Made by a program: the position numbers and the translations under genes. Below are positions 14,881 through 56,110 of a stretch of 64,000 bases of DNA, one piece after another (within the stretch, counting starts at the first letter, position 1; each line of letters begins with the position of its first letter). Below the pieces are notes generated by a model, which was given only the letters and a program-made list of their open reading frames with translations, did no database searches and was not told where the DNA came from. Source of the stretch: Limnochorda sp. L945t (GTDB lineage Bacteria > Bacillota > Limnochordia > Limnochordales > Geochordaceae); contig NZ_CP141615.1 of NCBI RefSeq assembly GCF_035593305.1, positions 3,249,550 to 3,313,549 on the forward strand, in the 5' to 3' direction.

Positions 14881-14972
14881 GGAGGGGTGCCGGAGCGGTC
14901 ATAACGGGGCGGTCTCGAAAACCGTTGAGGGGCCTAGCTCCTCCGAGGGTTCGAATCCCTCCCCCTCCGCCA
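14881..14972 (+). tRNA. tRNA-Ser (anticodon CGA)
   Basis: A 92-nt class II tRNA with acceptor arm GGAGGGG/CCCCTCC, discriminator G and encoded CCA. The anticodon loop CTCGAAA gives CGA (reads UCG). The long variable arm expected for serine tRNAs is present, and the T arm holds GGTTCGAATCC. Confidence 0.95.
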
Positions 14973-15007
14973 CGCGCGGCACGTGCCGGCCGGGAGCGTC
15001 ACGGCGC

Positions 15008-15099
15008 GGAAGGGTGCTGGAGCGGCCGAACAGGCACGCCTGGAGAGCGTGTGAGGTCCTACCGGGCCTCCGAGGGTTCAAATCCCTCCCCTTCCGCCA
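15008..15099 (+). tRNA. tRNA-Ser (anticodon GGA)
   Basis: A 92-nt class II tRNA with acceptor arm GGAAGGG/CCCTTCC, discriminator G and encoded CCA. The loop CTGGAGA gives anticodon GGA (reads UCC and UCU). It lies 35 nt after the first tRNA-Ser. An integrase remnant starts 29 nt beyond its 3' end, so this tRNA is the probable attachment site of the decayed island. Confidence 0.95.
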
Positions 15100-43190: not shown

Positions 43191-43880
43191 GACACGCCCC
43201 CTCGTCTGTACCAGCTCAACTCTCGCTTGCCGCCCGCTCCCGCCGGCCTAGTGATGCGGGCCGTGTGCAGGCGTCCCCGCCCTGGTCGGGTTCAGGCAGG
43301 CGGCCAGGTACCGGTCCTCGTTCGTCTGAAGATAGGACGCCTGTGAGGGGGGGACCAGCGGGGGATCGCGGCTTGTCCGCTTGGGCAGGCGTACCCGGCT
43401 CCAAGCGTTTGTGACGGAGACGAGAGGGAAGACCCGAGACGGGCAGCGGGCCCCACGGAGAGCTGCAGGGGTCGGGAAGTTACACCACGAGAGGGCTGAT
43501 ATGTACCAACTCCAGGGAACGCAGGCCGGAGGTGTTAGGCGATGGGAGCTAGGACCTTCGCCCCCCCCCCCCCCCCCCCGAACGCGCGTGCGCAGCTTGT
43601 TAACCAGCGCCCTCGATCCTCGACTTCGCTCCTACTCCCCCACACCGGACCCACGGCGCTCCACCGCCCTGCCACGGACTGATCGCGAGGTACTTCCAAC
43701 AGTTGGCATCGACCCGCTTCCCGTTCACCTTTAGGCCCTTCCTCCCATGACCTCCGGTTCCCTCATGAGGCCGGCCGGACCATCAACCCTGCCACGTGCT
43801 GGCAATCTTCCCGGTGATGAACGTCCTCCCGCTACCGGGGCCCCACGGACACGCACGCCACCCCTGTTGACCAGAGCCCA
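43191..43880. other. Intergenic region with a 19-base poly-C tract
   Basis: Nearly 700 bases before the repeat cassette. 43561-43579 is an uninterrupted run of 19 C. An open plus-strand frame crosses it (Pro run) but is unlike any known protein. Otherwise nothing supportable. Confidence 0.45.
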
Positions 43881-43995
43881 TTGACCTCACGACAGCAACT
43901 ACAGATCATTAGCGATAGCAGAACCTGGAGACAGGAGGAAACTCCTCGTCGCCGAGCCGGGCTGCGTCCAGCCGGGCGTCCGCGAGCCCGGCGAG
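43881..43995 (+). repeat. Promoter-leader repeat cassette, copy 1 (mutated -10)
   Basis: Matches 53600-53714 at 113 of 115 positions, with weaker similarity for about 25 nt further upstream. It holds TTGACC (43881-43886), 17 nt, then GATCAT (43904-43909), where copy 2 has TATCAT. The transcribed part contains AGGAG-GAAA-CTCCT and GGCTG-CGTC-CAGCC hairpins; the second difference lies in the loop of the latter. No gene follows on the plus strand; an IS110-family element lies just beyond. Confidence 0.85.
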
Positions 43996-44156
43996 ACGTA
44001 CGGTGTGAGTGTCAAGCGGGAATGGGTGTTCGGTGTACCTTGACAGGCGAATAACGTCCGTGGCCCCCGGAGGTGCTTGCGCGCGTCGGGAGCGGTTCAT
44101 GCAGCGGGCTTGTGGCCGGCCGGAGAACGTTATCGGGGTGGCCGGCGGAGCCCCGG

Positions 44157-45401
44157 TCAGGCGGAGCGGGCCTCCTTTCGGGTTCCGGTATAGGCCTGTC
44201 CCGTGCGCAGCAGAGCATAGACAAGCCGGACCAACTTCCGCGCGGTCAGCACGATGGCTCGCTTGTGATGGTGCCGGGTGGCTTCCCGGAACTTGCGCTC
44301 GCAAAAGGCCTGGTATTCGGGCGCGTACCTCCGCACGCTGTTAGCTGCCTCCACCAAGTAGTAGCGCAAGTAGGGGTTGCCGGTACGGCTCAAGGGCTTA
44401 TCTTCCCCTTCGAACTCGCCCGAGGCATGCTCCCGCCAGGTGAGGCCGGCGAACTTGGCGACGGCGTCGTCGTTGGGGAAGTTGCGCACGTCCCCGATCT
44501 CGGCCAGGATGCCGGCCCCAAAGACCGGCCCGATGCCTGGGACGGAGAGAAGCGGGCAGGTAACGCCGTGCATCTCCCGTTCGATGGCCCGGGAGGTCTG
44601 CCGGATCTCCCGCTCCAGGTCCCGGATGATTTGGAGCGTGGAGGCGAGGATGCGGTTGACCGGGTCCTGTAAGCGTTCGGGCAGCCGGTAGGAGTGTTTG
44701 GCGGCCGCTTGGAGGGCTTTGGCGACGTCGTAGGGGTTGTAGAACTTGTTGCGGCTCTTGTCCACGAGAAACCGGGCCAGCTCGTCCAGGGACGCGGCGG
44801 CCAGCTCTTCGGCCGAGGGGTAGGCCAGGATCAGCTCCCGGCCGGCGGCTCCCAGGGGGTCGGAGATGGGGCAGGCCTGCACCAGGCGGCTGCATTTGAG
44901 GAAGAGGTAGCCCAGAAAGTAGTTCTTGTGGCGCACGAGCTGCTTGACGAGAAAGTAGCGGTGCCGGGTCAGGCGCTGCAGGGGGAGATACCGGTCGTCG
45001 TAAGCAAACGGCCGCGGCAGCCGCCCGATGCGGACCCGGTCGGCCAGCACGTAGGCGTCGACCCAGTCGGTCTTGGGCAGGTCGGGGTAGGTCTTCTTGT
45101 ACGCGTCGATGGTGCGGGCATTGAAGAGGTAGACCTCGGGAGCGAAGGGTTCAAGCTCCGGCGCTTTGGTGAGGTAGAGGGCCAGATGCCAGCCGTAGAA
45201 GCTCGTGGCCTCCAGGCCGAAGCGGACGTGCGGGATGGCGTGGCGGGTGAGCAACCGGCAGGTTTGGGCCACCAGACTGACGGCGTCGCCGGCATCGTTG
45301 GCAAAGGCCAGGCGGCCATGATCGGCCTCGGTGTCGTCGACAAAGCGCGCGCGGTTTTGCTTGAGGGCCACGTCGATCCCGACGCACAGCCGTTGGGCCA
45401 T
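44157..45401 (-). mobile_element. IS110-family transposase (intact)
   Basis: 414 residues. The N-terminal DEDD domain has CVGIDVALKQNRARFVDD, GLEATSFYGWHLALYL and KTDWVDAYVLADRV, with the acidic residues typical of this RuvC-like recombinase; the C-terminal Transposase_20 domain has LLSVPGIGPVFGAGILAEIG and TGNPYLRYYLVEAANSV with the catalytic Ser region. No stop or frameshift is seen, so the element may be active. ATG at 45401 has AAAGGAGGT 9-10 nt upstream. IS110 elements lack inverted ends and are guided by a bridge RNA encoded in a non-coding end; the 400-base non-coding region upstream of this gene is the place to look. Confidence 0.93.
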
Positions 45402-45822
45402 GGACGCAAGACCTCCTTTCGAGGAAAGGTGGCCAAGGTTTGGGGCCCCAGTCGCCCGGGCGTCAAGCCGCAGCCTTGCCAGCATCAGCCCTGTTTCCCG
45501 GGCTCGCGGAGGTACCCGGGCTGCTGCACCCGGTCGAGCCGGGGAACGGGCAGCGTACGGGTCAGCGGTCTTCCGCTCGGCGTGGGGCGTGCAGTCTCTC
45601 GAAGCGGTTAGTGGCCCCAAGGGGGAGCAGCACCGCCCCAAAACCTGGCTTGCGCCAGGCTTCGACTGGGACGCCCCAAATACTTGCTCAGTTATCCACA
45701 GGGCTGTGGACAGAGGGCCGCGCGCCGGGGCGGCAGGGAGCCGGATCGCGGGAGCGATCCGCTGCCTCTACCGGTCGCGGGGGATCTGTCCGGGAACAAA
45801 CATACAAGGGGGATGGTGTAAC
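45402..45822. other. Non-coding region upstream of the IS110 transposase; candidate bridge-RNA end
   Basis: About 420 bases with no gene. It includes strong small hairpins: CCTGGC-TTGC-GCCAGG (45644-45659) and TCCACAG-GG-CTGTGGA (45695-45710). In IS110-group elements the bridge RNA is transcribed from the non-coding end next to the transposase start, so part of this region (roughly 45402-45700) is a candidate. The exact IS end cannot be fixed from one copy. Confidence 0.4.
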
Positions 45823-46992
45823 GTGGCTTTCCGTGAAACCATCGTTCGCCTGGGGACTACTTGTGCTGCTCTGGTGGCTTTCATCCTGACATTCGGTTCT
45901 CTCACCGCGGCCGCCCAGGACGGCATGACCATTGCAGCAGAACCTCTTTATGTGTCGTTTACGGGTGCCGACATCCACATCCTCGACGAGGTCCTGGACT
46001 GGCAGAAGCCAACTCCCGAAGGGGTCGCCTACTCTCGGGAGGTGACTCCCCGCTGGTTCCAGCCGGGACCTTCTCTGGTTCCGCGCTTGACCGCCTCCGT
46101 GGGCTTGACGCCGGACTTCACGCTGGCGGCCGAGGGGTTGTTCGTCGACTGGGGCGATAGCGAGAGCAGGCACTTCGAGGCTCCCCCCTCCGTATCAGGC
46201 GACGTCTCGTACCGAAACGCTGTCTTTCTCTGGGACGGCAACTTCCGGTTGCCCGACGAATCCCAGTTCGCCATGCCGAACGACCAGCACCCGAGCGGCT
46301 GGAGCCCCATCGACTGGAGCGCCGATGCCGGCATCCGGCTCGCTTCGGGTTCCGTCGGTGCGCGCATCCGGCTCTTCAGCGGGGGCGGCTTCGAGGTCGC
46401 CGCGGAAGGGGGCCTCAGCATCTTCCATCTCGACCACCATTTCAACCGCAGAGTAGCGATGACGTTTCAAGGAGCGACGGACTGGTACACAGAATCCGAG
46501 GGCACCCAGACAGTCTTGGAGTACGTTCGCAACCGCATTACGCTCGACGAAAAAGCTTCGAGCACGGGGACAGTCTTCGGCCCGAACGTGGGGCTTCGCC
46601 TTTCCGCCTACCTGGGGGACGCGTTCATCGAAGCGTCCGCGAGCCAGGGGATCCTCATGGGAATCCTGCAGACCAGCAGCCGCTTCGTGGACGTGGACGA
46701 TGCCTTGGTCGATACCGCGAACCCTCCGGACGGCATATGGGATTATCACGACGTGCTGCGAGGCGACATCCCGTTCGAGGAGGACGTCCGCACCACCATC
46801 CCCGCGACACGGATAGCACTCTCGGTGAGCTACCCCGTAGGGCCGGCACAGATCGGTGTCGGGGCCTTCTACTCCCTGTACCGTAACGTCCCCGTTTCTC
46901 CTGGGCTGAGCTACCGAGACATGACCTTCAAGCGGCGCACGCAGGACATGGGGTTGTCCGGGATTGGGGCTTTCGCGCGACTGTCTTTCTAG
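45823..46992 (+). CDS. Exported beta-barrel-type protein (outer-membrane-like)
   Basis: 389 residues. A signal peptide (LGTTCAALVAFILTFGSLTA, cleavage after AAA before QDG) is followed by a domain rich in alternating polar/hydrophobic strands: LVPRLTASVGLTPDFTLAAE, SADAGIRLASGSVGARIRLF, FGPNVGLRLSAYLGDAFIE, TRIALSVSYPVGPAQIGVG. The last strand ends GIGAFARLSF with terminal Phe, the beta-signal read by the BAM complex. This looks like a porin-like or Lpg1974-like outer-membrane protein. GTG at 45823 follows AAGGGGG. It stands alone beside the IS110 element. The fold call rests on strand pattern, not on a recognised family motif. Confidence 0.65.
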   Translation: MAFRETIVRLGTTCAALVAFILTFGSLTAAAQDGMTIAAEPLYVSFTGADIHILDEVLDWQKPTPEGVAYSREVTPRWFQPGPSLVPRLTASVGLTPDFTLAAEGLFVDWGDSESRHFEAPPSVSGDVSYRNAVFLWDGNFRLPDESQFAMPNDQHPSGWSPIDWSADAGIRLASGSVGARIRLFSGGGFEVAAEGGLSIFHLDHHFNRRVAMTFQGATDWYTESEGTQTVLEYVRNRITLDEKASSTGTVFGPNVGLRLSAYLGDAFIEASASQGILMGILQTSSRFVDVDDALVDTANPPDGIWDYHDVLRGDIPFEEDVRTTIPATRIALSVSYPVGPAQIGVGAFYSLYRNVPVSPGLSYRDMTFKRRTQDMGLSGIGAFARLSF

Positions 46993-49057: not shown

Positions 49058-49286
49058 CTTGCCGCTCCTCCTCGTCCTGTCGAGCCGGTTGGAGCCAATC
49101 CCGCATCACACCGTACCGGATCATGGTTTCGACGCTGGCGAGCATCAGCCGCAGGTTGAGAGCGATGAGCGGCACGCCGGACAGGGTGACGACCAGGTCG
49201 GCATTCACCACGAGGCCCTTGTCCAGGGCGCGTTCCAGCAAGTCTGCGACCCCGCCCTTGACGACTCGGGGCCGGGCCGGCTTCAC
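48729..49286 (-). CDS. gvpJ: Gas vesicle protein, GvpA/GvpJ family, with an anomalous tail
   Basis: The first 75 residues are a clear GvpA/J-type shell domain: GGVADLLERALDKGLVVNAD, LVVTLSGVPLIALNLRLML, ASVETMIRYG. Such proteins are minor shell or nucleation components. The start GTG overlaps the gvpL stop by 4 nt. After about residue 80 (QPARQDEEERQ) the frame runs on for 105 residues of Pro/Gly/Arg/His-rich sequence that looks like a shifted frame, while the coiled-coil gene begins in another frame. Either the tail is disordered and real, or an indel fused the end. The domain call is firm, the C-terminus is not. Confidence 0.75.
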   Translation of the reverse strand: MKPARPRVVKGGVADLLERALDKGLVVNADLVVTLSGVPLIALNLRLMLASVETMIRYGVMRDWLQPARQDEEERQGAWVTPPARVPFPAPNPSGHGRSARPHGDAAARHAWRHRASTGAPQFQARGHCKPLGDDGHVFPPGEPPGHADPPGGRGAPPAVTIAPGAGAPGRELRPQSGTFDIAAP

Positions 49287-50362
49287 CCGGCTTCACCCCG
49301 CTGCGGTTGCAGGTTGACGAAACTATAGGGCGGCCAGGGCCCGGTGACTCGTACCGAGTAGCCGTCGGAGGACTCGAAGGAACGGAGCGCGTCCAGGAGG
49401 TCTTCTATCGCCTCGTTCGGCACGAGACAGGAGAAATTCGCCACCATCTCGGTTTCGCCCTCTGGATCTCGAAGTTTTTCCGATCGCACGGCCCGGGCGT
49501 GCCGGTGAAGTGCCTGTTCCAATGCCGCGGTACGCTGAGTCGCCTCGTCTTCGAGGAGGCTCCGCACCTGCCGGTCCATATCCTTCTGGAGCAGGTAGGC
49601 TACGGATGCAGGGGCTCGACTGAGGCGAACCTGCAACTCTTTCAAGTCAGGCCGTGTGGCCAGAAGATGTGAGCGGGCAACCCCTGGCTCTCGCAGTAGC
49701 TGGACCCCATACTCTCGACATCCGCTCACCAGGGCCAGGATCTGTTCGAGCTGAGTCGTGTTATCCGACACCCATTGTTTCAGGGCCGCGAGCGCATCCA
49801 CGCCGTCCTTGTGGATGATGGTGTCAAAGGCCACCGGAATGAGATCCCCGGCACATTCGGCTGCTTGCTCTACCACGGCGTGATGTTGCTCTATCCAGCG
49901 GATGACCTGCTCTCGGTCATCGGAAGCGTAAGGTTGTGGCTCGCATTCGTGCACCAATGCAAACCACCCGTTGACTCTCGTGACCGTCACGGGCTGGCCT
50001 TCGATTCCTCGGCACGCGAGGCCGTCGCATCCGTCACCGCGGCCGATGGCATACAGGTAAAAGGCCTGCCCGGGTGGCGTCACACGGTCTCGTCGGGGGT
50101 TGACCTCGGGCTCGGCCTCTACCGGCGCGCTTGGTGCTGCTTCTGGTTGGGTGGGAACGGCAGGTTCGTTGGTAGCGAGGCGCCACACACCTTCCAGGAT
50201 CCACGGATCGGGGGCCGAGACGCCCAGTAATTGAACGGCCCTCGTCAACGAATCCCTCGACACCCGGACACCGGCAGCCTTCAACCCCAGCGCCGCGAAG
50301 AGGGCAACCATAGCGCACCTGGCCTGCTCCTCTGCATGCGGGACCTGTCCGGCGGGAGTCAT
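49283..50362 (-). CDS. gvpL: Gas vesicle protein GvpL/GvpF family, with N-terminal extension
   Basis: 359 residues. From about residue 100 it is a GvpL/F protein: FYLYAIGRGDG, VNGWFALVHECEPQPYASDD, EQHHAVVEQAAECAGDLIPVAF, and the C-terminal NFSCLVPNEAIEDLLDALRS with VTGPWPPYSFVNL, the family's closing motif. GvpL/F proteins help nucleate and assemble the vesicle. The first 95 residues (RCAMVALFAALGLKAAGVRV and a Pro/Glu-rich linker) are extra compared with standard members of about 250 residues. ATG at 50362 overlaps the gvpK stop by 4 nt and fixes the start. Confidence 0.88.
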   Translation of the reverse strand: MTPAGQVPHAEEQARCAMVALFAALGLKAAGVRVSRDSLTRAVQLLGVSAPDPWILEGVWRLATNEPAVPTQPEAAPSAPVEAEPEVNPRRDRVTPPGQAFYLYAIGRGDGCDGLACRGIEGQPVTVTRVNGWFALVHECEPQPYASDDREQVIRWIEQHHAVVEQAAECAGDLIPVAFDTIIHKDGVDALAALKQWVSDNTTQLEQILALVSGCREYGVQLLREPGVARSHLLATRPDLKELQVRLSRAPASVAYLLQKDMDRQVRSLLEDEATQRTAALEQALHRHARAVRSEKLRDPEGETEMVANFSCLVPNEAIEDLLDALRSFESSDGYSVRVTGPWPPYSFVNLQPQRGEAG

Positions 50363-50664
50363 GCGTCCTCCCACTGCTTCGGGTCGACGAAACGGGTGAG
50401 CGTGTCGTCCACGAGGTCGTCCAGGGCCCGTCTCGTCTTGCGAACGATCTGGTGGAGGCCGTTCTCCGACTTGAGTTGCTCGATGGCCTGGTCCAGGTCC
50501 ATCAAAGCCTGCCCCAGTCGACCGGCTTCCACACTCGACAGCGAGCCGCCTTTCATCCGTTTGACGGACTCTGCGACCAGCACGTCCCGGATGACCTCCA
50601 CCAGCGTGACAACGAGTCCCAGGAGCCCCTTCTTCAGGTTGTCTGCGTCAACTTCGAGAGCCAT
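50359..50664 (-). CDS. gvpK: Gas vesicle protein GvpK
   Basis: 101 residues spanning the whole family: DADNLKKGLLGLVVTLVEVI, then KRMKGGSLSSVEAGRLGQAL and MDLDQAIEQLKSENGL, ending RRALDDLVDDTLTRFVDP. GvpK is an essential small assembly protein in several systems. ATG at 50664 with a GAGGTGG site; it lies within the 3' end of the upstream zinc-ribbon gvpJ gene (31-nt overlap), showing tight packing. Confidence 0.93.
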   Translation of the reverse strand: MALEVDADNLKKGLLGLVVTLVEVIRDVLVAESVKRMKGGSLSSVEAGRLGQALMDLDQAIEQLKSENGLHQIVRKTRRALDDLVDDTLTRFVDPKQWEDA

Positions 50665-51044
50665 GTGTCCACCTCGGTTCCATACGCCCGTGACCGTTCC
50701 GCTCCCCCGGCTCGCCTCTTCGGGGGCTCCCAACCGCACCACGGGCACCCCGTCGAGAGGAGCTCCATCCTGGGTTCCTTGCGCCCGCACTGCGGGCAGG
50801 GTTCACGCTTGCCGGCCTCCTCCTTCCAGCCCCTGGAGTCGAGATTCGTGCCGCTGGGAAATTCAAGCCCGTACCTGGCCGCGGTTTCGAAGGATGCCAG
50901 GGCGGCCCGGATCTTGATGCCGAGGAGTTCCACCCCGGCGACGGAGATCGTGATGTCGGCGTTGATGACCAGCCCTTTATCGAGGACACGGTCGATCAGG
51001 TCTGCCAGCGTATCACCTCGCCTCGGATTGTCGAGCACCGGCAT
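50634..51044 (-). CDS. gvpJ: GvpA/GvpJ-family protein with a C-terminal zinc ribbon
   Basis: 136 residues. Residues 1-65 are a GvpJ/A shell-type domain: TLADLIDRVLDKGLVINADI, TISVAGVELLGIKIRAALAS, FETAARYGLEF. A linker then leads to four cysteines in two pairs, CPQCG and CPWCGW, 15 residues apart, a zinc-ribbon pattern I do not associate with standard GvpJ proteins. The ribbon could bind another Gvp, metal or nucleic acid. ATG at 51044 with an AAGGGGGG site; it overlaps gvpG by 32 nt and gvpK by 31 nt. Confidence 0.85.
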   Translation of the reverse strand: MPVLDNPRRGDTLADLIDRVLDKGLVINADITISVAGVELLGIKIRAALASFETAARYGLEFPSGTNLDSRGWKEEAGKREPCPQCGRKEPRMELLSTGCPWCGWEPPKRRAGGAERSRAYGTEVDTWLSKLTQTT

Positions 51045-51273
51045 CGCCCTCGCGCCCCCCTTCGTCCAGCGCCCGGAGGTACTCCATCTCGGTGATCTCT
51101 CCCATTTCATATGCCGCCTGGAGGTCGGCCAGTTCACCGGGAAGCCTTCGGGCTTCCTCGTACTCCCGCTGGGCGAGAGCCGTCGCCTCCTCGATGGCGA
51201 TCCACGCTGTCTTGAGCGGCAGAGAGACCGGCAGCGCGAAGAGGTCCAGCAAGCCCATCCGCAGCTCGGGCAC
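51013..51273 (-). CDS. gvpG: Gas vesicle protein GvpG
   Basis: 86 residues. MGLLDLFALPVSLPLKTAWI, then AQREYEEARRLPGELADLQA and AYEMGEITEMEYLRALDE match GvpG (amphipathic N-terminus, then a charged helix with GEI(S/T)EEEY). GvpG works with GvpF/L in assembly. The GTG at 51273 has GGGGAGGTG 8 nt upstream; the ATG at 51258 is less well placed. It lies 36 nt after gvpF. Confidence 0.88.
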   Translation of the reverse strand: MPELRMGLLDLFALPVSLPLKTAWIAIEEATALAQREYEEARRLPGELADLQAAYEMGEITEMEYLRALDEGGREGDAGARQSEAR

Positions 51274-51309
51274 AGTCAGTCACCTCCCCTATCCGCTCCA
51301 TTCCTTCTC

Positions 51310-52083
51310 CTACCGGCCGGCGACCTCGATGTCCGAAGGGACCCGGAGCGCGATGTTGGCGAAGCTGAACGCCGGAAGCGGCATGGTGAGTCTGAAGCGC
51401 AAGCGCCCCCGCAAACTCTCCTGGAGTCTCGCGACGATCGCACGGATTGTTTCCTGCTCTGTTTCTGGCACGAGGAGCGCGAGGTTGATGAGCATGCGAA
51501 CCCCGATGAGACGGCCCTCCTGTAGCTCGACGACGTGGCTCATCAGGCTTCGTCGCGCGAGCAGCTCACACTGCTCGCGCCAGGTTTGCACCACACGTTC
51601 TGCGAGGCTTCCCAGTTCCACACGCGCCGCGTACTCGCTTCCGGGGGACACACGCGCCGCCGCGACGCACCGGCGCACTGCCGGTGTCCGGAGCAACGCT
51701 TGCCGGAGCGCCTCCCGTTCCCAAAAGGCCACAAGGGATGCCTCGACTCGCCCTCTCAGGTAGTCCAGCTGTCGAACCAGCGCCCGCTCGTTGAGCTCTA
51801 CCAGCCGGCGGATGGCCTGCTGCGAGGGCGCCGTCACGCCGAACCGGAACGGTAACACGGTCGCTCCTTGGTCCAGGAACCAGCGTGCCACTTCGGCGTG
51901 CGCGGCGAGCTCCTCGGGTGTCGGTCGCTCGACCTGTTCGGCAAGGTCACTGGCAGCTACCACCAGCGGGCCGCACTTCACGAGGTGCACGGCAGTTCCG
52001 CGTATACCGGGAACGGGGAGCGCGAGGTTCCTCGGGTTCAGCGCATCCGGATCAGCGGCGGCGTACACGTGCCAGTTGGACAT
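51310..52083 (-). CDS. gvpF: Gas vesicle protein GvpF/GvpL family
   Basis: 257 residues, standard length. WHVYAAADPDALNPRNLALP opens the family, followed by EELAAHAEVARWFLDQGATV with LPFRFGVTAPSQQAIRRLV, and the C-terminal LRFRLTMPLPAFSFANIAL with the conserved 'P.psF' closing motif. GvpF contacts GvpA during vesicle nucleation. ATG at 52083 with GGAGGG 8 nt upstream; the start lies within the 3' end of the small upstream gene. Confidence 0.9.
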   Translation of the reverse strand: MSNWHVYAAADPDALNPRNLALPVPGIRGTAVHLVKCGPLVVAASDLAEQVERPTPEELAAHAEVARWFLDQGATVLPFRFGVTAPSQQAIRRLVELNERALVRQLDYLRGRVEASLVAFWEREALRQALLRTPAVRRCVAAARVSPGSEYAARVELGSLAERVVQTWREQCELLARRSLMSHVVELQEGRLIGVRMLINLALLVPETEQETIRAIVARLQESLRGRLRFRLTMPLPAFSFANIALRVPSDIEVAGR

Positions 52084-52258
52084 TCCCACGACCCTCCTGG
52101 AGGAAGGAAACCCTGGCCCCAGCATCGACCCGGAGCTGGCCGGAAACGAATTCGACCAGATACACGTTCTCGCGCTGGCCTGCCTCCAGGTCCTTCACCA
52201 CTCGGGTCACCCACCGCAGGAGGTTTGCGGGGCGAGCGGTACGTCCATCGTGTTTCAC
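52052..52258 (-). CDS. Small unknown protein between gvpN and gvpF (68 aa)
   Basis: The GTG at 52258 overlaps the gvpN stop by 4 nt (GTGA), the same coupling used elsewhere in this operon, and the frame runs to 52052, overlapping gvpF by 32 nt. The product has a helix LLRWVTRVVKDLEAGQREN and a strand-like YLVEFVSGQLRVDAGARVSF, and ends in basic residues. It does not match a named Gvp known to me. Without it there would be a 171-nt gap in an operon where other genes overlap or nearly touch, which supports it being real. Confidence 0.6.
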   Translation of the reverse strand: MKHDGRTARPANLLRWVTRVVKDLEAGQRENVYLVEFVSGQLRVDAGARVSFLQEGRGNVQLARVRRR

Positions 52259-53103
52259 CCGACCATCTCTCCTTCTCGTGCCTCGCCGGTTTGCCCCGAG
52301 AGGCCCACCAGATCGGCCGCGATCGACCGCAGACGTGCATCCGCCGGATCCACCGGGATACCCTCGGCCACCACGATTCTCGCTGCCATGAGTACGGCTC
52401 GTAGCAGTGAACCCCGCGGCCTCGCGCCCGGCCGCGCGGCCCAATGCGCGATGGTCTCGACCAGGGTATGAGCTTGATCGGGCGTGATCCCCGTACGGGC
52501 GGCGGCGATCGAGACCATTTCGTCCAACCCGTAGCCCGGCAGCGTCAGGGTGACCACCCGGTCGAGCAACGCTTCCTGTACTGCGTGCACGCCTGCTTGC
52601 TCGCCGGGATTGCTCGTCAGAATGAGCCGGAACTCCGGATGAACCCGGAGAAACGTCACATCCCCATGGGCGGTCGGCAGGGGCAGGATCCGTTCTTCCA
52701 AAACGGGCAGGAGCACGTTGTTGGCCTCCGGCCGGGACCGCGTGAACTCGTCGTAAACCATGACGCCTCCCGAGCGGCACGCGATGGCCAGTCGGTTCGC
52801 CACCCACCGCTCCGTCAAAGACTCCTCGCGCCGGTGCACGGAGCGGATGAATTCGTCGACCACCAAGCGCCTGGTGAAACCGAGCGGTGCGCCTACGAGT
52901 TCGGTAGTGGAGAGTACCTCGTCACCGTGTAGGAGGTGTACCGAACGACCGAGCCGGTGCGCGAGGTGCAGCGCCAGGGTGGTCTTGCCTACTCCGGGCT
53001 GCCCGCTGAGATGCACGGGTATACCGTTTGCGAGGTACATGAACGCCCGCTCGATGAGACCGGCAATGGAAGGAGTGACGACGACTCCGGCGTGCTCCTG
53101 CAT
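52255..53103 (-). CDS. gvpN: Gas vesicle protein GvpN (AAA+ ATPase)
   Basis: 282 residues. Walker A is SGQPGVGKTTLALHLA (P-loop 34-41), followed by the GvpN stretch HLLHGDEVLSTTELVGAPLG, Walker B GGVMVYDEFTRSRPEANNVL, and FRLILTSNPGEQAGVHAVQE with the sensor Asn. GvpN is a MoxR-type ATPase that promotes vesicle growth after nucleation. ATG at 53103 with a GAGGAG site. It follows gvpA by 113 nt, a gap that may hold a processing or attenuation site to make gvpA more abundant; I see no strong hairpin to prove it. Confidence 0.95.
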   Translation of the reverse strand: MQEHAGVVVTPSIAGLIERAFMYLANGIPVHLSGQPGVGKTTLALHLAHRLGRSVHLLHGDEVLSTTELVGAPLGFTRRLVVDEFIRSVHRREESLTERWVANRLAIACRSGGVMVYDEFTRSRPEANNVLLPVLEERILPLPTAHGDVTFLRVHPEFRLILTSNPGEQAGVHAVQEALLDRVVTLTLPGYGLDEMVSIAAARTGITPDQAHTLVETIAHWAARPGARPRGSLLRAVLMAARIVVAEGIPVDPADARLRSIAADLVGLSGQTGEAREGEMVG

Positions 53104-53216
53104 ACCATCGCTCCTCGTGCTGCTCGAGGCGGTTCCGGTGCCCGGGAATCGCGGCGCCGCCGAGGGCCTTGCCCGGCCACTCCCGGCGGCGCCGGGCGAA
53201 GAAAGCGCCGTTCTGT

Positions 53217-53438
53217 TCACGCCGGAACCGGAGCCGGCGTCGGCTGGAGCAGGCCGACAGCGTCGGCATACTTCAGCCAGGTGTCAACTGAGGCAATGAC
53301 CACACGGGCTTCAACGGCGAGGAGCTCAATCCCTACCAGGGAGACCTTCGCCCAGAGGTCGACGACGACTCCCTTATCGAGAACCCGGTCGAGCACCTCA
53401 ACAAGACTGGACGGCTGCGTGCTCGTTCGGATAGACAA
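53217..53438 (-). CDS. gvpA: Major gas vesicle shell protein GvpA
   Basis: 73 residues, the canonical length. [20 protein letters not shown], then [20 protein letters not shown] and [14 protein letters not shown] follow the GvpA consensus almost residue by residue, including the beta-hairpin that forms the ribs. It polymerises into the gas-permeable, water-excluding wall. The start is a TTG at 53438, preceded by AGAGGGGGG; upstream codons are not conserved. It is the first gene of the operon, as expected for the most abundant protein. Confidence 0.95.
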
Positions 53439-53599
53439 TTTCGACCCCCCTCTGCCGCAATGGGTGATTTGCCCTACCGGTATATGCCCCTCGAAACCCG
53501 GCGTTGTTAGCGCTGCGGAGCCATTGCCCGGGATCCGCCCGTTCTCCACTGGCTCCTGGGGGTGGCTCCCGGCAGGCGAACCCTGCCGACCAGCGCCTG
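53439..53599. other. Upstream region of the gas vesicle operon
   Basis: The gvpA promoter should lie here on the minus strand. I see GCATATACC-like sequence (about 53480-53490) but no convincing -35, so the promoter may use an alternative sigma factor or an activator. Confidence 0.35.
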
Positions 53600-53714
53600 T
53601 TGACCTCACGACAGCAACTACATATCATTAGCGATAGCAGAACCTGGAGACAGGAGGAAACTCCTCGTCGCCGAGCCGGGCTGCGCCCAGCCGGGCGTCC
53701 GCGAGCCCGGCGAG
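53600..53714 (+). repeat. Promoter-leader repeat cassette, copy 2 (drives padR operon)
   Basis: 113 of 115 positions match copy 1 at 43881-43995. TTGACC (53600-53605), 17 nt, TATCAT (53623-53628) is a strong promoter, with a start near 53635. The leader has AGGAG-GAAA-CTCCT (53652-53665) and GGCTG-CGCC-CAGCC (53679-53692). CCGGGCT (53676-53682) can instead pair with AGCCCGG (53704-53710), which would exclude the second hairpin, an attenuator-like choice. The cassette ends just before the padR ribosome site. Confidence 0.85.
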
Positions 53715-53725
53715 GGGGATGGCCG

Positions 53726-54190
53726 GTGGCACGCAGCGGCCTCATCGACTTCTCCAAGCTCTCCGGCGGCTTGCTGCTGACGCGAGGGTTGCTGCCGTAC
53801 TTCGTGCTGAAGCTCCTGGACGAGCGGGCGCCCCTGTGCGGCACGGAGCTCCTCGACGCCATCTACGACCTCACCGGGGGCCGTTGGCGGCCGTCGCCCG
53901 GCGCCATGTACCCCTTGCTGCGGCGGCTGCGCCGCCAGGGCCTCGTCAAGGCCACCCCGGCACGGCGGGGCGGGCGGCTCGTGCAGGAGTACGCCCTGAC
54001 ATCCGAGGGCCGAGCGGAGCTACGCCGGTTCCTGCACGAGATCCGGCCGCGTCTCGAACAGACCGTCGCACTGCTCCAGGTGCACCTGCACAGCCTGGGA
54101 GGGACATGGGATGACAGAGCCGGTCACAATGCCCCGGGCCCCGGGAGGGACTCCGGTCCCGGCGGCGGGACGAGGACAGCAGCCCGTTAG
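53726..54190 (+). CDS. PadR-family transcriptional regulator
   Basis: 154 residues. LLTRGLLPYFVLKLLDERAP, GTELLDAIYDLTGGRWRPSP, then GAMYPLLRRLRRQGLVKATP and VQEYALTSEGRAELRRFL are the complete PadR winged helix (the SPGxxYPxLxxLxxxGLV motif). PadR proteins repress exporter or detoxification genes in response to ligands. GTG at 53726 has GAGGGGG 7 nt upstream. The last 80 nt overlap the ATPase gene, so the C-terminal tail (Gly/Arg-rich) may be an addition. It is the first gene of the padR-drrAB operon and likely autoregulates it. Confidence 0.88.
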   Translation: MARSGLIDFSKLSGGLLLTRGLLPYFVLKLLDERAPLCGTELLDAIYDLTGGRWRPSPGAMYPLLRRLRRQGLVKATPARRGGRLVQEYALTSEGRAELRRFLHEIRPRLEQTVALLQVHLHSLGGTWDDRAGHNAPGPGRDSGPGGGTRTAAR

Positions 54191-55274
54191 CGACGGTGAA
54201 GCAGGGTCACTGGCCGTCTGGGCCCGGGGGCTGGTCAAGACCTACGCCAACGGGGCCGTTCGGGCGCTCGACGGCGTCGACCTCGCCGTTCCGGCCAGCG
54301 CCATCTACGCCGTCGTCGGGCCCAACGGAGCCGGCAAGACGACCCTTCTGAGCATCCTGATGACGCTGGCCCGTCCTACTGCCGGCGAGGCCCGGGTGCT
54401 GGGGTACGACGTCGTCGCCGAGGCGGATGCGGTACGGCGGAAGATCGGGGTGGCGTTCCAGGAACTGAGCGTCGACCTCGACTTGCCGGGACGGGCGGTG
54501 CTGGAGTTTCACGCTCGACTCTATGGGATGGGCGCCCAAGAGCGCGAGCGCCGCATCGCCGAGCTGGCAGAGCTCGTGGGGCTCGGGGCGGGGCCTGAAC
54601 GACGAGGGGCCGGGCGGGCGCCCGGCGGCGTGCTCGACCGAAAGGTGGGCACGTACTCGGGCGGGATGAAGCGCCGCCTGGAGCTCGCCCGGGCGCTACT
54701 CTCCCGGCCTCGGTTGCTGTTCCTTGATGAGCCCACGGCCGGCCTCGACCCGCAAAACCGCGAGGCTCTGTGGGACGCCATCCGCGACCTGCGCCGGCGG
54801 GACGGCGTCACCGTGGTGCTGACCACGCACTACCTCGAGGAGGCCGAACGGCTGGCCGACCGAGTGGCAGTCATCGATCGCGGGCGGATTCTCCAGGAGG
54901 GCACCCCTGGCGAGCTGGTGCGGGCACTCGGGGAGGAAGTCATCTACGTGGGCGGAGAGCGGCGGGGCTCTGGGGGAGCTGGCGCCACCCGCGACGAGGA
55001 TGAAGGTGCGCTTCGGGCGCTGGGGGAGGTCCTCGTGAAGGCGGGCCTGGCCCGATGGTTCTCGATGGACACCCGGTTGCAGCTGGGCGTGGCGGCATCG
55101 GAGCCGGTTCTGCCGGAGCTCGTGCGGCTCGCACAGGAGCAGGGGGTTCGTCTGCGAGAGCTCAGCGTCAGGCGCCCCTCGCTCCACGACGTGTTCCTCA
55201 AGCTGACCGGGCGGGCGCTGCGTGACGAGGCGGGAGACGAGGCCGGAGATGGGCATGGAGGCGAGGCCGGGTGA
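54111..55274 (+). CDS. DrrA-type ABC exporter ATPase
   Basis: 387 residues. After a 35-residue variable N-terminus come LVKTYANGAVRALDGVDLAV, Walker [12 protein letters not shown] (70-80), Q-loop IGVAFQELSVD, a Gly/Arg insertion, signature [16 protein letters not shown] and Walker B LLFLDEPTAGLDPQ, with TTHYLEEAERL. The C-terminal ACR-like domain (SVRRPSLHDVFLKLTGRALR) is typical of daunorubicin-resistance DrrA proteins. It overlaps padR upstream by 80 nt and the permease by 4 nt. Predicted to power export of a drug-like or lipid substrate. Confidence 0.9.
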   Translation: MTEPVTMPRAPGGTPVPAAGRGQQPVSDGEAGSLAVWARGLVKTYANGAVRALDGVDLAVPASAIYAVVGPNGAGKTTLLSILMTLARPTAGEARVLGYDVVAEADAVRRKIGVAFQELSVDLDLPGRAVLEFHARLYGMGAQERERRIAELAELVGLGAGPERRGAGRAPGGVLDRKVGTYSGGMKRRLELARALLSRPRLLFLDEPTAGLDPQNREALWDAIRDLRRRDGVTVVLTTHYLEEAERLADRVAVIDRGRILQEGTPGELVRALGEEVIYVGGERRGSGGAGATRDEDEGALRALGEVLVKAGLARWFSMDTRLQLGVAASEPVLPELVRLAQEQGVRLRELSVRRPSLHDVFLKLTGRALRDEAGDEAGDGHGGEAG

Positions 55275-56110
55275 GCGGGTTTACGGCGCTTTACGCAAAG
55301 CAGATGTACCGGTTCGTGCGAAGCCCCATGGAGATGATGAGCACGCTTTTCATGCCGCTCATCCTGGTGGGGCTGTTTGGGGTGGGAATGGCGTCGGCAC
55401 TGGGACGAGTGGCAGGCGGGTTAGCGGGCGGCGCGACGGTAGGGGGGCTGGCGGGCGCCGGAATGACGAGCGGCGGCGCAGGAGCAGGCTTCGGTGCCGC
55501 GTACCTGGCGTTCATGACGCCGGGGGCGGCGGCGCTCACCGTGCTCTCGTCGTCGGTCGTGGGCGGAGCCACGCTGCTTCAGGAGCGCCTCAACGGCGTC
55601 ATCCGCCAGTACCTCGTCGCTCCGATCCCGAGGCTCGCGATTCTGGCCGGCAGCGTGTCGAGCTCCGTGACGAAGGCGGTCGGCCAGGCCGTGCTGATCG
55701 TGCTGCTGGCGGCGGTGCTCGGCGCACACATGCAGTTGCAGGGCCCTGCAACGCTGGCGGCGATGGCAGGAACGCTTGCGTTCGCGATAGGGTTCGCCGG
55801 GCTTTCCGCCTACTTTGCGTCCATCACGTCGACGATGGGCGCGTACCACGCGGTGATCAACATCTTCAACGTTCCGCTGCTGTTCGCAAGCAACGCCCTC
55901 TACCCCCTGAGCGTGCTACCGGGGTGGCTCCGGGCGCTGGCGCTCCTCAATCCCACGTCCTACGCTGTAGAGCTCGTGCGACTGGCGACCGGCGCCGGTG
56001 CGCCGGAACTGCTGGGGGTCGCGGGCGACCTCGCCGTGCTGGCGGGATTTGGGGCCGCCGGGCTCATGGTGGGGCTGAAGGGCGTCCGCCTCTGGGCCAC
56101 GCCGCTATGA
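55271..56110 (+). CDS. DrrB-type ABC-2 permease
   Basis: 279 residues with six spans. FRSP-type N-terminus (YRFVRSPMEMMSTLFMPLIL), then a Gly/Ala-rich loop (GRVAGGLAGGATVGGLAGAG), TLLQERLNGVIRQYLVAPIP (the 'ERe.Gt.r.ll..P' loop of ABC-2 permeases) and FNVPLLFASNALYPLSVLPG with LALLNPTSYAVELVR, the closing motif. The start GTGA overlaps the ATPase stop. With DrrA it forms the PadR-controlled exporter. Confidence 0.9.
   Translation: MSGFTALYAKQMYRFVRSPMEMMSTLFMPLILVGLFGVGMASALGRVAGGLAGGATVGGLAGAGMTSGGAGAGFGAAYLAFMTPGAAALTVLSSSVVGGATLLQERLNGVIRQYLVAPIPRLAILAGSVSSSVTKAVGQAVLIVLLAAVLGAHMQLQGPATLAAMAGTLAFAIGFAGLSAYFASITSTMGAYHAVINIFNVPLLFASNALYPLSVLPGWLRALALLNPTSYAVELVRLATGAGAPELLGVAGDLAVLAGFGAAGLMVGLKGVRLWATPL

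Follow-up and report, generated by a model that had tools for sequence, protein, structure and literature searches.

A duplicated promoter and leader with a candidate PadR operator, one copy likely severed by RNA-guided IS110 insertion at its Shine-Dalgarno sequence

Duplicated or transferred regulatory regions are known, both as mobile promoters and from horizontal regulatory transfer. As in those cases, a promoter region recurs here before an unrelated gene, but the two copies lie in one genome, and their source and recipient are proposed from the operator. For the regulator itself, the nearest studied analogue is LmrR of Lactococcus lactis, a PadR protein that represses itself and the ABC drug exporter LmrCD (PMC4534193). 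As far as the accessible part of that paper allows a comparison, the two systems share a PadR-family regulator, its own promoter as target and an ABC drug exporter under control. They differ in the operator, which reads TATC-N6-GATA here, and in that a second gene, for a predicted barrel, was joined here through a duplicated promoter and leader. cdPadR1 of Clostridioides difficile is likewise a PadR protein whose own promoter contains inverted repeats, and it has sites at other promoters too; its repeat is TACT/AGTA, with about 200 predicted sites in the part of the paper available (PMC5050560), whereas the palindrome here has one exact place, one-mismatch places being extra. IS621 and other IS110 elements with a bridge RNA or seekRNA resemble the element described below in their IS110-family transposase, in their CT core and in left-end noncoding guides that match the insertion site (PMC11208160, PMC11187229, both from the portions accessible). 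Unlike theirs, the left guides here mostly have an end close to the anti-Shine-Dalgarno sequence, and the insertions lie at ribosome-binding sites. ISPpu9, another IS110 element, sits in REP sequences according to the accessible text of PMC8450116.

In this study, we analysed a stretch of 64 kb, hereafter the window, in which the same 115-bp noncoding segment occurs twice. We consider it probable that this repeat is a sigma-70-type promoter whose -10 hexamer lies over a likely PadR operator, followed by a leader, likely untranslated, that runs for some 80 bases to the Shine-Dalgarno sequence. Copy 2 stands before padR with its ABC exporter and, until an IS110 element inserted, copy 1 likely stood before the gene of a predicted outer-membrane barrel, both likely repressed by the same PadR. 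Promoters of PadR-type autorepressors are a known kind, to which the cassette adds a new instance; its history is uncommon, and the likely guided insertion is the more surprising part. Read this way, the duplicated leader becomes a legible history, in which the promoter of an autorepressor was likely recruited by a second gene and then severed. The features are collected in Table 1.

Table 1. Features of the two copies, their genes and the IS110 element (window positions)
Feature	Position	Strand	Basis or remark
Weaker upstream homology, copy 1	43853..43880	+	28-mer scan of the window
Cassette copy 1, now severed	43881..43995	+	-10 GATCAT; palindrome GATCATTAGCGATA
IS110-family element	43996..45808	-	CT core (AG on +) at 43994-43995 and 45807-45808
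IS110 transposase, 414 aa	44157..45401	-	ATG start inferred from Shine-Dalgarno AAGGAGG; PF01548 and PF02371 on longer frame 44157-45641
Putative right target guide of bridge RNA, CGAG	45598..45601	-	right target CTCG
Putative left target guide of bridge RNA, CTCCCCCT	45620..45627	-	insertion site reads ATCCCCCT; guide rules from PMC11208160
Copy 1 cassette continuation beyond IS110	45809..45816	+	GGGGATGG, same in copy 2
Predicted outer-membrane beta-barrel gene, 389 aa	45823..46992	+	structure model and fold matches; GTG start
Weaker upstream homology, copy 2	53572..53599	+	20/28 identical
Copy 2 promoter, TTGACC-17-TATCAT	53600..53628	+	no second promoter-like site in 53400-53800; shuffled sequences gave a mean of 0.0
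Likely PadR operator, TATCATTAGCGATA, over copy 2 -10	53623..53636	.	pattern match; related palindromes at other padR starts
Likely untranslated leader of copy 2	53635..53714	+	transcript start inferred; hairpins 53645-53673 and 53675-53711 predicted
Shine-Dalgarno AGGGGGA of padR	53713..53719	+	word shared with the site in copy 1 where IS110 inserted
padR, PadR-family regulator	53726..54190	+	GTG start inferred from Shine-Dalgarno; PF03551, E 1.1e-15, on longer frame 53504-54190
DrrA-like ABC exporter ATPase	54111..55274	+	PF00005; TIGR01188 (drrA) 311 bits, cut-off 312.45
DrrB-like ABC exporter membrane subunit (ABC-2 permease)	55271..56110	+	PF01061; TIGR01247 (drrB) 109.8 bits, cut-off 223.05

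The two copies and the genes behind them

The earlier note had counted 113 identical positions in 115, and re-comparison gave the same figure, with G in copy 1 against T in copy 2 at 43904/53623 and T against C at 43967/53686. A whole-genome search of the 3.31-Mb genome at E ≤ 0.001 returned these two places only, the second with E 4.7e-52, and no other match up to E 10 is longer than 47 bases. The homology exceeds 115 bp: directly upstream, from 43853/53572, 20 of 28 bases are identical, and across 63,000 starts in the window this 28-mer reaches 20 or more matches only with itself and at one other place. The upstream edge is graded, with 14 of 50 agreeing in the 50 bases further upstream. The search for further copies that had been proposed gave no more than these two in the genome itself and none in 197 other genomes. 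The exact 22-base core of the leader is absent from the genome contigs searched and the exact 20-base core from the viral contigs searched, and weak pieces of the cassette occur in 13 plasmid and 2 phage records, none of which covers 80% of the query.

The -35 hexamer, 17-nt spacer and -10 hexamer described for each copy were recovered by a promoter scan, with 10 of 12 consensus matches in copy 2 and 9 of 12 in copy 1 (TTGACC-17-GATCAT), where this is the sole site in its region. The G/T difference falls, as had been observed, on the first -10 base, which is also the first base of the palindrome, and it is copy 1 that departs from consensus. The second difference, placed earlier in a hairpin loop, lies instead in a predicted stem.

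Behind copy 2, a PadR-family regulator is directly followed by ABC exporter genes, the arrangement of a PadR autoregulated exporter operon, and the families PF03551, PF00005 and PF01061 bear out the assignment of this copy to padR and an exporter. The drrA score is just short of its cut-off (TIGR01188) and the drrB score well short (TIGR01247). On the minus strand, gas-vesicle genes at 49283-53450 diverge from the padR operon, with a GvpA-like match (PF00741) to the frame at 53217-53609 and, at 52255-53220, an AAA protein; we take the latter to be GvpN, and the remaining frames of 49283-53450 are presumably gvp genes. The gap between gvpA and the cassette is about 160 bases.

Directly right of copy 1 lies an element of 1.8 kb with DEDD_Tnp_IS110 and Transposase_20 domains and a CT core at both junctions, as in the IS110 family. 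A genome from the same bacterial family as ours, G001, carries a 90% identical element that matches 43991-45812 of the window, and another, G002, has a left-end remnant of the same IS110 with no transposase match. Because the flanks of the G001 element are unrelated to the cassette, the cassette lies outside IS110, and the possibility that it is an IS end is ruled out by the element ends mapped with G001. When the flanks are joined without IS110, copy 1 reads CCGCGAGCCCGGCGAG followed by GGGGATGGTGTAACGTGGCT, and its counterpart in copy 2 reads CCGCGAGCCCGGCGAG followed by GGGGATGGCCGGTGGCACGC. The eight further identical bases, GGGGATGG (a word that occurs 5 times in the window), lead up to the GTG start codon of the barrel gene. 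The abrupt end of copy 1 was made by the insertion of IS110 at its Shine-Dalgarno. Given this continuation and the GTG at 45823, both copies were likely the promoter, leader and Shine-Dalgarno of a gene before the insertion, and copy 1 likely stood before the barrel gene until then. The earlier gene assignment is right for copy 2 and incomplete for copy 1, which likely also led a gene before IS110. The description as a promoter plus leader is supported, and so is that of a regulatory cassette of two genes.

The 389-aa product of the gene formerly behind copy 1 is predicted to be an outer-membrane barrel. It has no Pfam family above cut-off, with Legionella_OMP at E 0.16 only. Its structure model (pLDDT 77.8, pTM 0.74) has a signal-like helix at 2-24 and 13 strands, and the best 20 fold matches in the PDB are all outer-membrane barrels (top E 1.9e-9, TM 0.46 by query length). 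Limnochordia have an outer membrane, according to the part of PMC11456536 available. Two paralogs occur in the genome, 52% and 43% identical, making three members in total; neither has the cassette before it. Elsewhere, G025 has a weak match, and a protein search added a single distant relative, from a Fidelibacterota MAG.

A candidate PadR operator over the -10 hexamer

What the comparisons below show to be conserved is a DNA palindrome across the -10 hexamer. The TATC/GATA palindrome is likely the PadR operator, a prediction from pattern and position. An inverted repeat at the regulator's own promoter, as in PadR autoregulated operons, is found at 53623-53636. The only exact match of our genome to the pattern TATCRNTNNYGATA lies across the -10 hexamer of copy 2, and a reversed control has no exact match; the copy 1 palindrome GATCATTAGCGATA has one mismatch to it. 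With up to one mismatch, the genome holds 18 forward and 12 reverse matches, copy 1 included, against 2 and 5 in the control, so that the single exact place may understate the extent of the regulon or overstate the specificity of the motif. A second and weaker PadR relative in the genome (E 1.5e-5) could be an alternative binder of the palindrome. As ATGT is absent from 53600-53714, there is no ATGT-N8-ACAT box in the cassette; the palindrome is TATC-N6-GATA, unlike the ATGT/ACAT box of other PadR proteins given in the accessible part of PMC5050560. Judged by its sequence, the cassette seems to work like a PadR autoregulated exporter operon while standing outside the ATGT/ACAT subgroup.

Related palindromes occur at padR starts in six other genomes, G004 and five more. 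PadR relatives were matched in 83 of 397 genomes, and 30 loci around them were scanned. The palindrome pattern is present in 10 of the 30 and the reversed control in 2; in seven, among them our locus and that of G004, its position is immediately before padR or at the padR start. Five of these seven have tandem TATCG-N4-CGATA boxes about 22-25 bases behind TTGACA. The copy 2 palindrome is imperfect (TATCAT/GCGATA) and stands alone, whereas each of these five loci carries two or three boxes in tandem. TATCG-N4-CGATA over the -10 is a candidate operator for an exporter-linked PadR subgroup. At L139, L145 and L146, the palindrome is not directly before the padR match. Downstream of the PadR relative of L146, at 1941-1990, are two palindromes, TATCACTAGTGATA and TATCAGTAGTGATA, possibly the operator of the neighbouring gene. 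The two nearest genomes, G001 and G002, have no padR match, and a scan of genome contigs for PadR relatives gave no confirmed locus.

The padR ortholog of G004, a genome from another family of the order, encodes a protein 50% identical to our PadR, and the ABC ATPase gene after it is kept. Its start carries TTGACC-17-TATTAT, then TATCGCTAGTGATG and TATCGCTGGCGATA. The sole exact TATCRNTNNYGATA match of the G004 genome and a one-mismatch place 16 bp upstream both lie at this start. At L032:1424-1440, the -10 occupies 1424-1429 and an ATG is possible at 1438; the mRNA of this ortholog is possibly leaderless, its start codon falling at about the start of the transcript.

Leader fold, mobility and coding potential as other readings

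Another reading is that the leader is a structured cis-regulatory RNA for both genes, be it a riboswitch, an attenuator or a protein-binding leader, and that the fold rather than the promoter is conserved. We regard this as unlikely. The 80-base leader folds better than its shuffles (-43.4 kcal/mol and z -3.74 in copy 2, z -2.79 in copy 1), and the CCGGGCT/AGCCCGG pairing, formerly taken for an alternative, belongs to this best fold. The two leaders agree at 79 of 80 bases, the sole change, T/C at 43967/53686, keeps its stem pair as U-G in place of C-G, and both copies extend to the start codon. However, longer versions of the leader fold otherwise and stand out less (z -2.57 for 96 bases, z -2.11 for 106 bases), the second hairpin alone reaches only z -1.55, and the DNA is GC-rich; two sequences with one change can give no covariation signal. 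The Shine-Dalgarno starts just behind the second hairpin in the 80-base fold and is partly paired in the 96-base fold. No intrinsic terminator was found in the leader. Rfam at gathering score returned two tRNAs only for the whole window, so the leader matches no described RNA family at that score, and at E up to 10 the region 53500-53800 gave five matches, all below cut-off and from unrelated families, the top one being an animal IRES model with 20.7 bits against a cut-off of 110. By reading of the sequence, no such leader was seen at the padR starts of G004 and the five other genomes. Together with the absence of copies and of exact core words described above, these negative results speak against the riboswitch or attenuator of the earlier note. 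The identity over 80 bases goes beyond what a duplicated promoter would need and may reflect recent copying or a function of the leader; a function of the predicted fold is possible. The two tRNA genes of the window lie at 14881-15096, with 89 bases each and 38 bases between them.

We find it quite improbable that the repeat moves as a single unit, whether as a mobile promoter or as one end of a MITE or other transposable element. It is nearly identical at two places before unrelated genes, and one of its edges coincides with IS110. Yet there are two copies only in the genome and none in the 197 others, the plasmid and phage matches are short and weak, no cassette sequence lies beside the IS110 of G001, and the upstream edge fades instead of ending. 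The term mobile promoter suits the repeat loosely, as a duplicated regulatory region; no terminal repeats were noticed, and the right edge was made by IS110.

That the repeat is coding, either extending both proteins at the N-terminus or giving the two genes a common in-frame leader peptide from TTG 53600, is scarcely credible. In its favour, the frame is open from TTG 53600 to GTG 53726, the two copies differ by three bases in their spacing to the GTG codon, and the T/C change at 53686 is at a third codon position. Against it, third-position GC is 0.55 here, compared with 0.87 for padR and 0.78 for the barrel gene; the only start coincides with the -35 and precedes the transcript inferred; and between TTG 53600 and GTG 53726 there is no in-frame ATG, GTG or TTG. 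We rejected such an extension on its third-position GC and because the inferred transcript offers it no start codon.

Proposed regulation and history of the two copies

With the repeat read as a duplicated PadR-type promoter and leader, PadR would bind the palindrome over the -10 and block RNA polymerase, and a drug-like ligand would release it, so that exporter and barrel would rise together. The cassette would have come from padR and been received by the barrel gene. padR is the likely source because in G004, from a different family of the order, the operator is likewise tied to padR, and because the barrel paralogs are without the cassette; this direction of copying, taken from two copies, is likely. 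IS110 would then have landed in the Shine-Dalgarno of copy 1, most likely through base pairing of a bridge RNA, and the orphaned promoter would have begun to lose its -10 and operator. The first -10 and palindrome base of copy 1 is off consensus, as expected of an orphaned promoter.

Putative bridge-RNA guides and the insertion sites of the IS110 clade

IS110 elements choose their target by a bridge RNA, whose left and right target guides include the core, as stated in the accessible part of PMC11208160. In the element here, the putative left guide CTCCCCCT lies in the left-end region, between segments common with the G001 element, which has the guide TGCCTCCT and the insertion site TACCTCCT. 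The putative right guide, CGAG, fits the right target of the two insertions, CTCG in each case. Read along the strand of the gene, the left target starts with AGGGGG or AGGAGG, which is a Shine-Dalgarno sequence, and the left guides of the clade mostly end CCYCCT or ACTCCT, near the anti-Shine-Dalgarno sequence (L007, L015, L097-L133). We hold it probable that this IS110 clade of the phylum has anti-Shine-Dalgarno bridge-RNA guides that would direct RNA-guided insertion to ribosome-binding sites, where the downstream gene keeps its Shine-Dalgarno and loses its promoter. Copy 1 would be one such event, which cut the barrel gene from the PadR regulon.

Transposase matches at E ≤ 1e-60 occur in 44 of 397 genomes, and junctions were counted from 12 of the 44 (our own, G001, G138, G120, G221, G187, G367, G117, G270, G154, G325 and G155) plus the G002 remnant. 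This gave 33 left-end junctions in 13 genomes, ten of which have transposases 41-50% identical to ours. A fixed rule asked for ATG, GTG or TTG 3-11 bases past a six-base Shine-Dalgarno-like word, with the frame open through the flank read. Of the 33 junctions 29 pass, against 5.4 expected from shuffled flanks; some flanks are only 20-30 bases long, where an open frame means little, insertions inside genes may have been purged, and copies in one genome are not independent. With ATG alone, 21 junctions pass against 2.1 expected. The insertions precede genes that read outward from the left end of the element. The junctions that fail are G138a, G120c, G155 and G270c. The rule counts G221c, which by reading sits inside a histidine-kinase-like gene, and rejects G270c, where an ideal Shine-Dalgarno precedes an open frame that is short, so that the total by hand is also 29 of 33. 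Left out before the count were G187a (rearranged end), G187d and the loci L110 and L131 of G154 (other elements), and two copies of G216.

The guides also follow their own targets. A guide matches its own target at a mean of 6.72 of 8 positions (32 pairs) and the targets of others at 5.86 (352 pairs), a preference reached by none of 5000 label permutations, with junctions and guides picked by eye from alignments and one guide taken per genome, though one G367 copy differs.

No report of an IS110 element aiming at the Shine-Dalgarno was found among the titles, abstract starts and passages searched, a collection that covers few subscription papers. In the accessible part of PMC11187229, 'ribosome binding site' occurs once, for a cargo gene, and in the main text of PMC11208160 that was available the word 'ribosome' is absent. 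PMC3196728, in its accessible part, describes insertions too near start codons for a Shine-Dalgarno to fit and does not discuss targeting. If true, a guide that reads the Shine-Dalgarno would open very many gene-adjacent landing sites and leave coding sequence mostly intact, and IS110 elements so aimed would be a general route to rewire expression.

The IS110 of G216 (L134, L135) has the guide ACATCCT and sits twice in the same repeat, at a site that is not a Shine-Dalgarno. Its guide and target differ together from those of the clade, as the guide model predicts.
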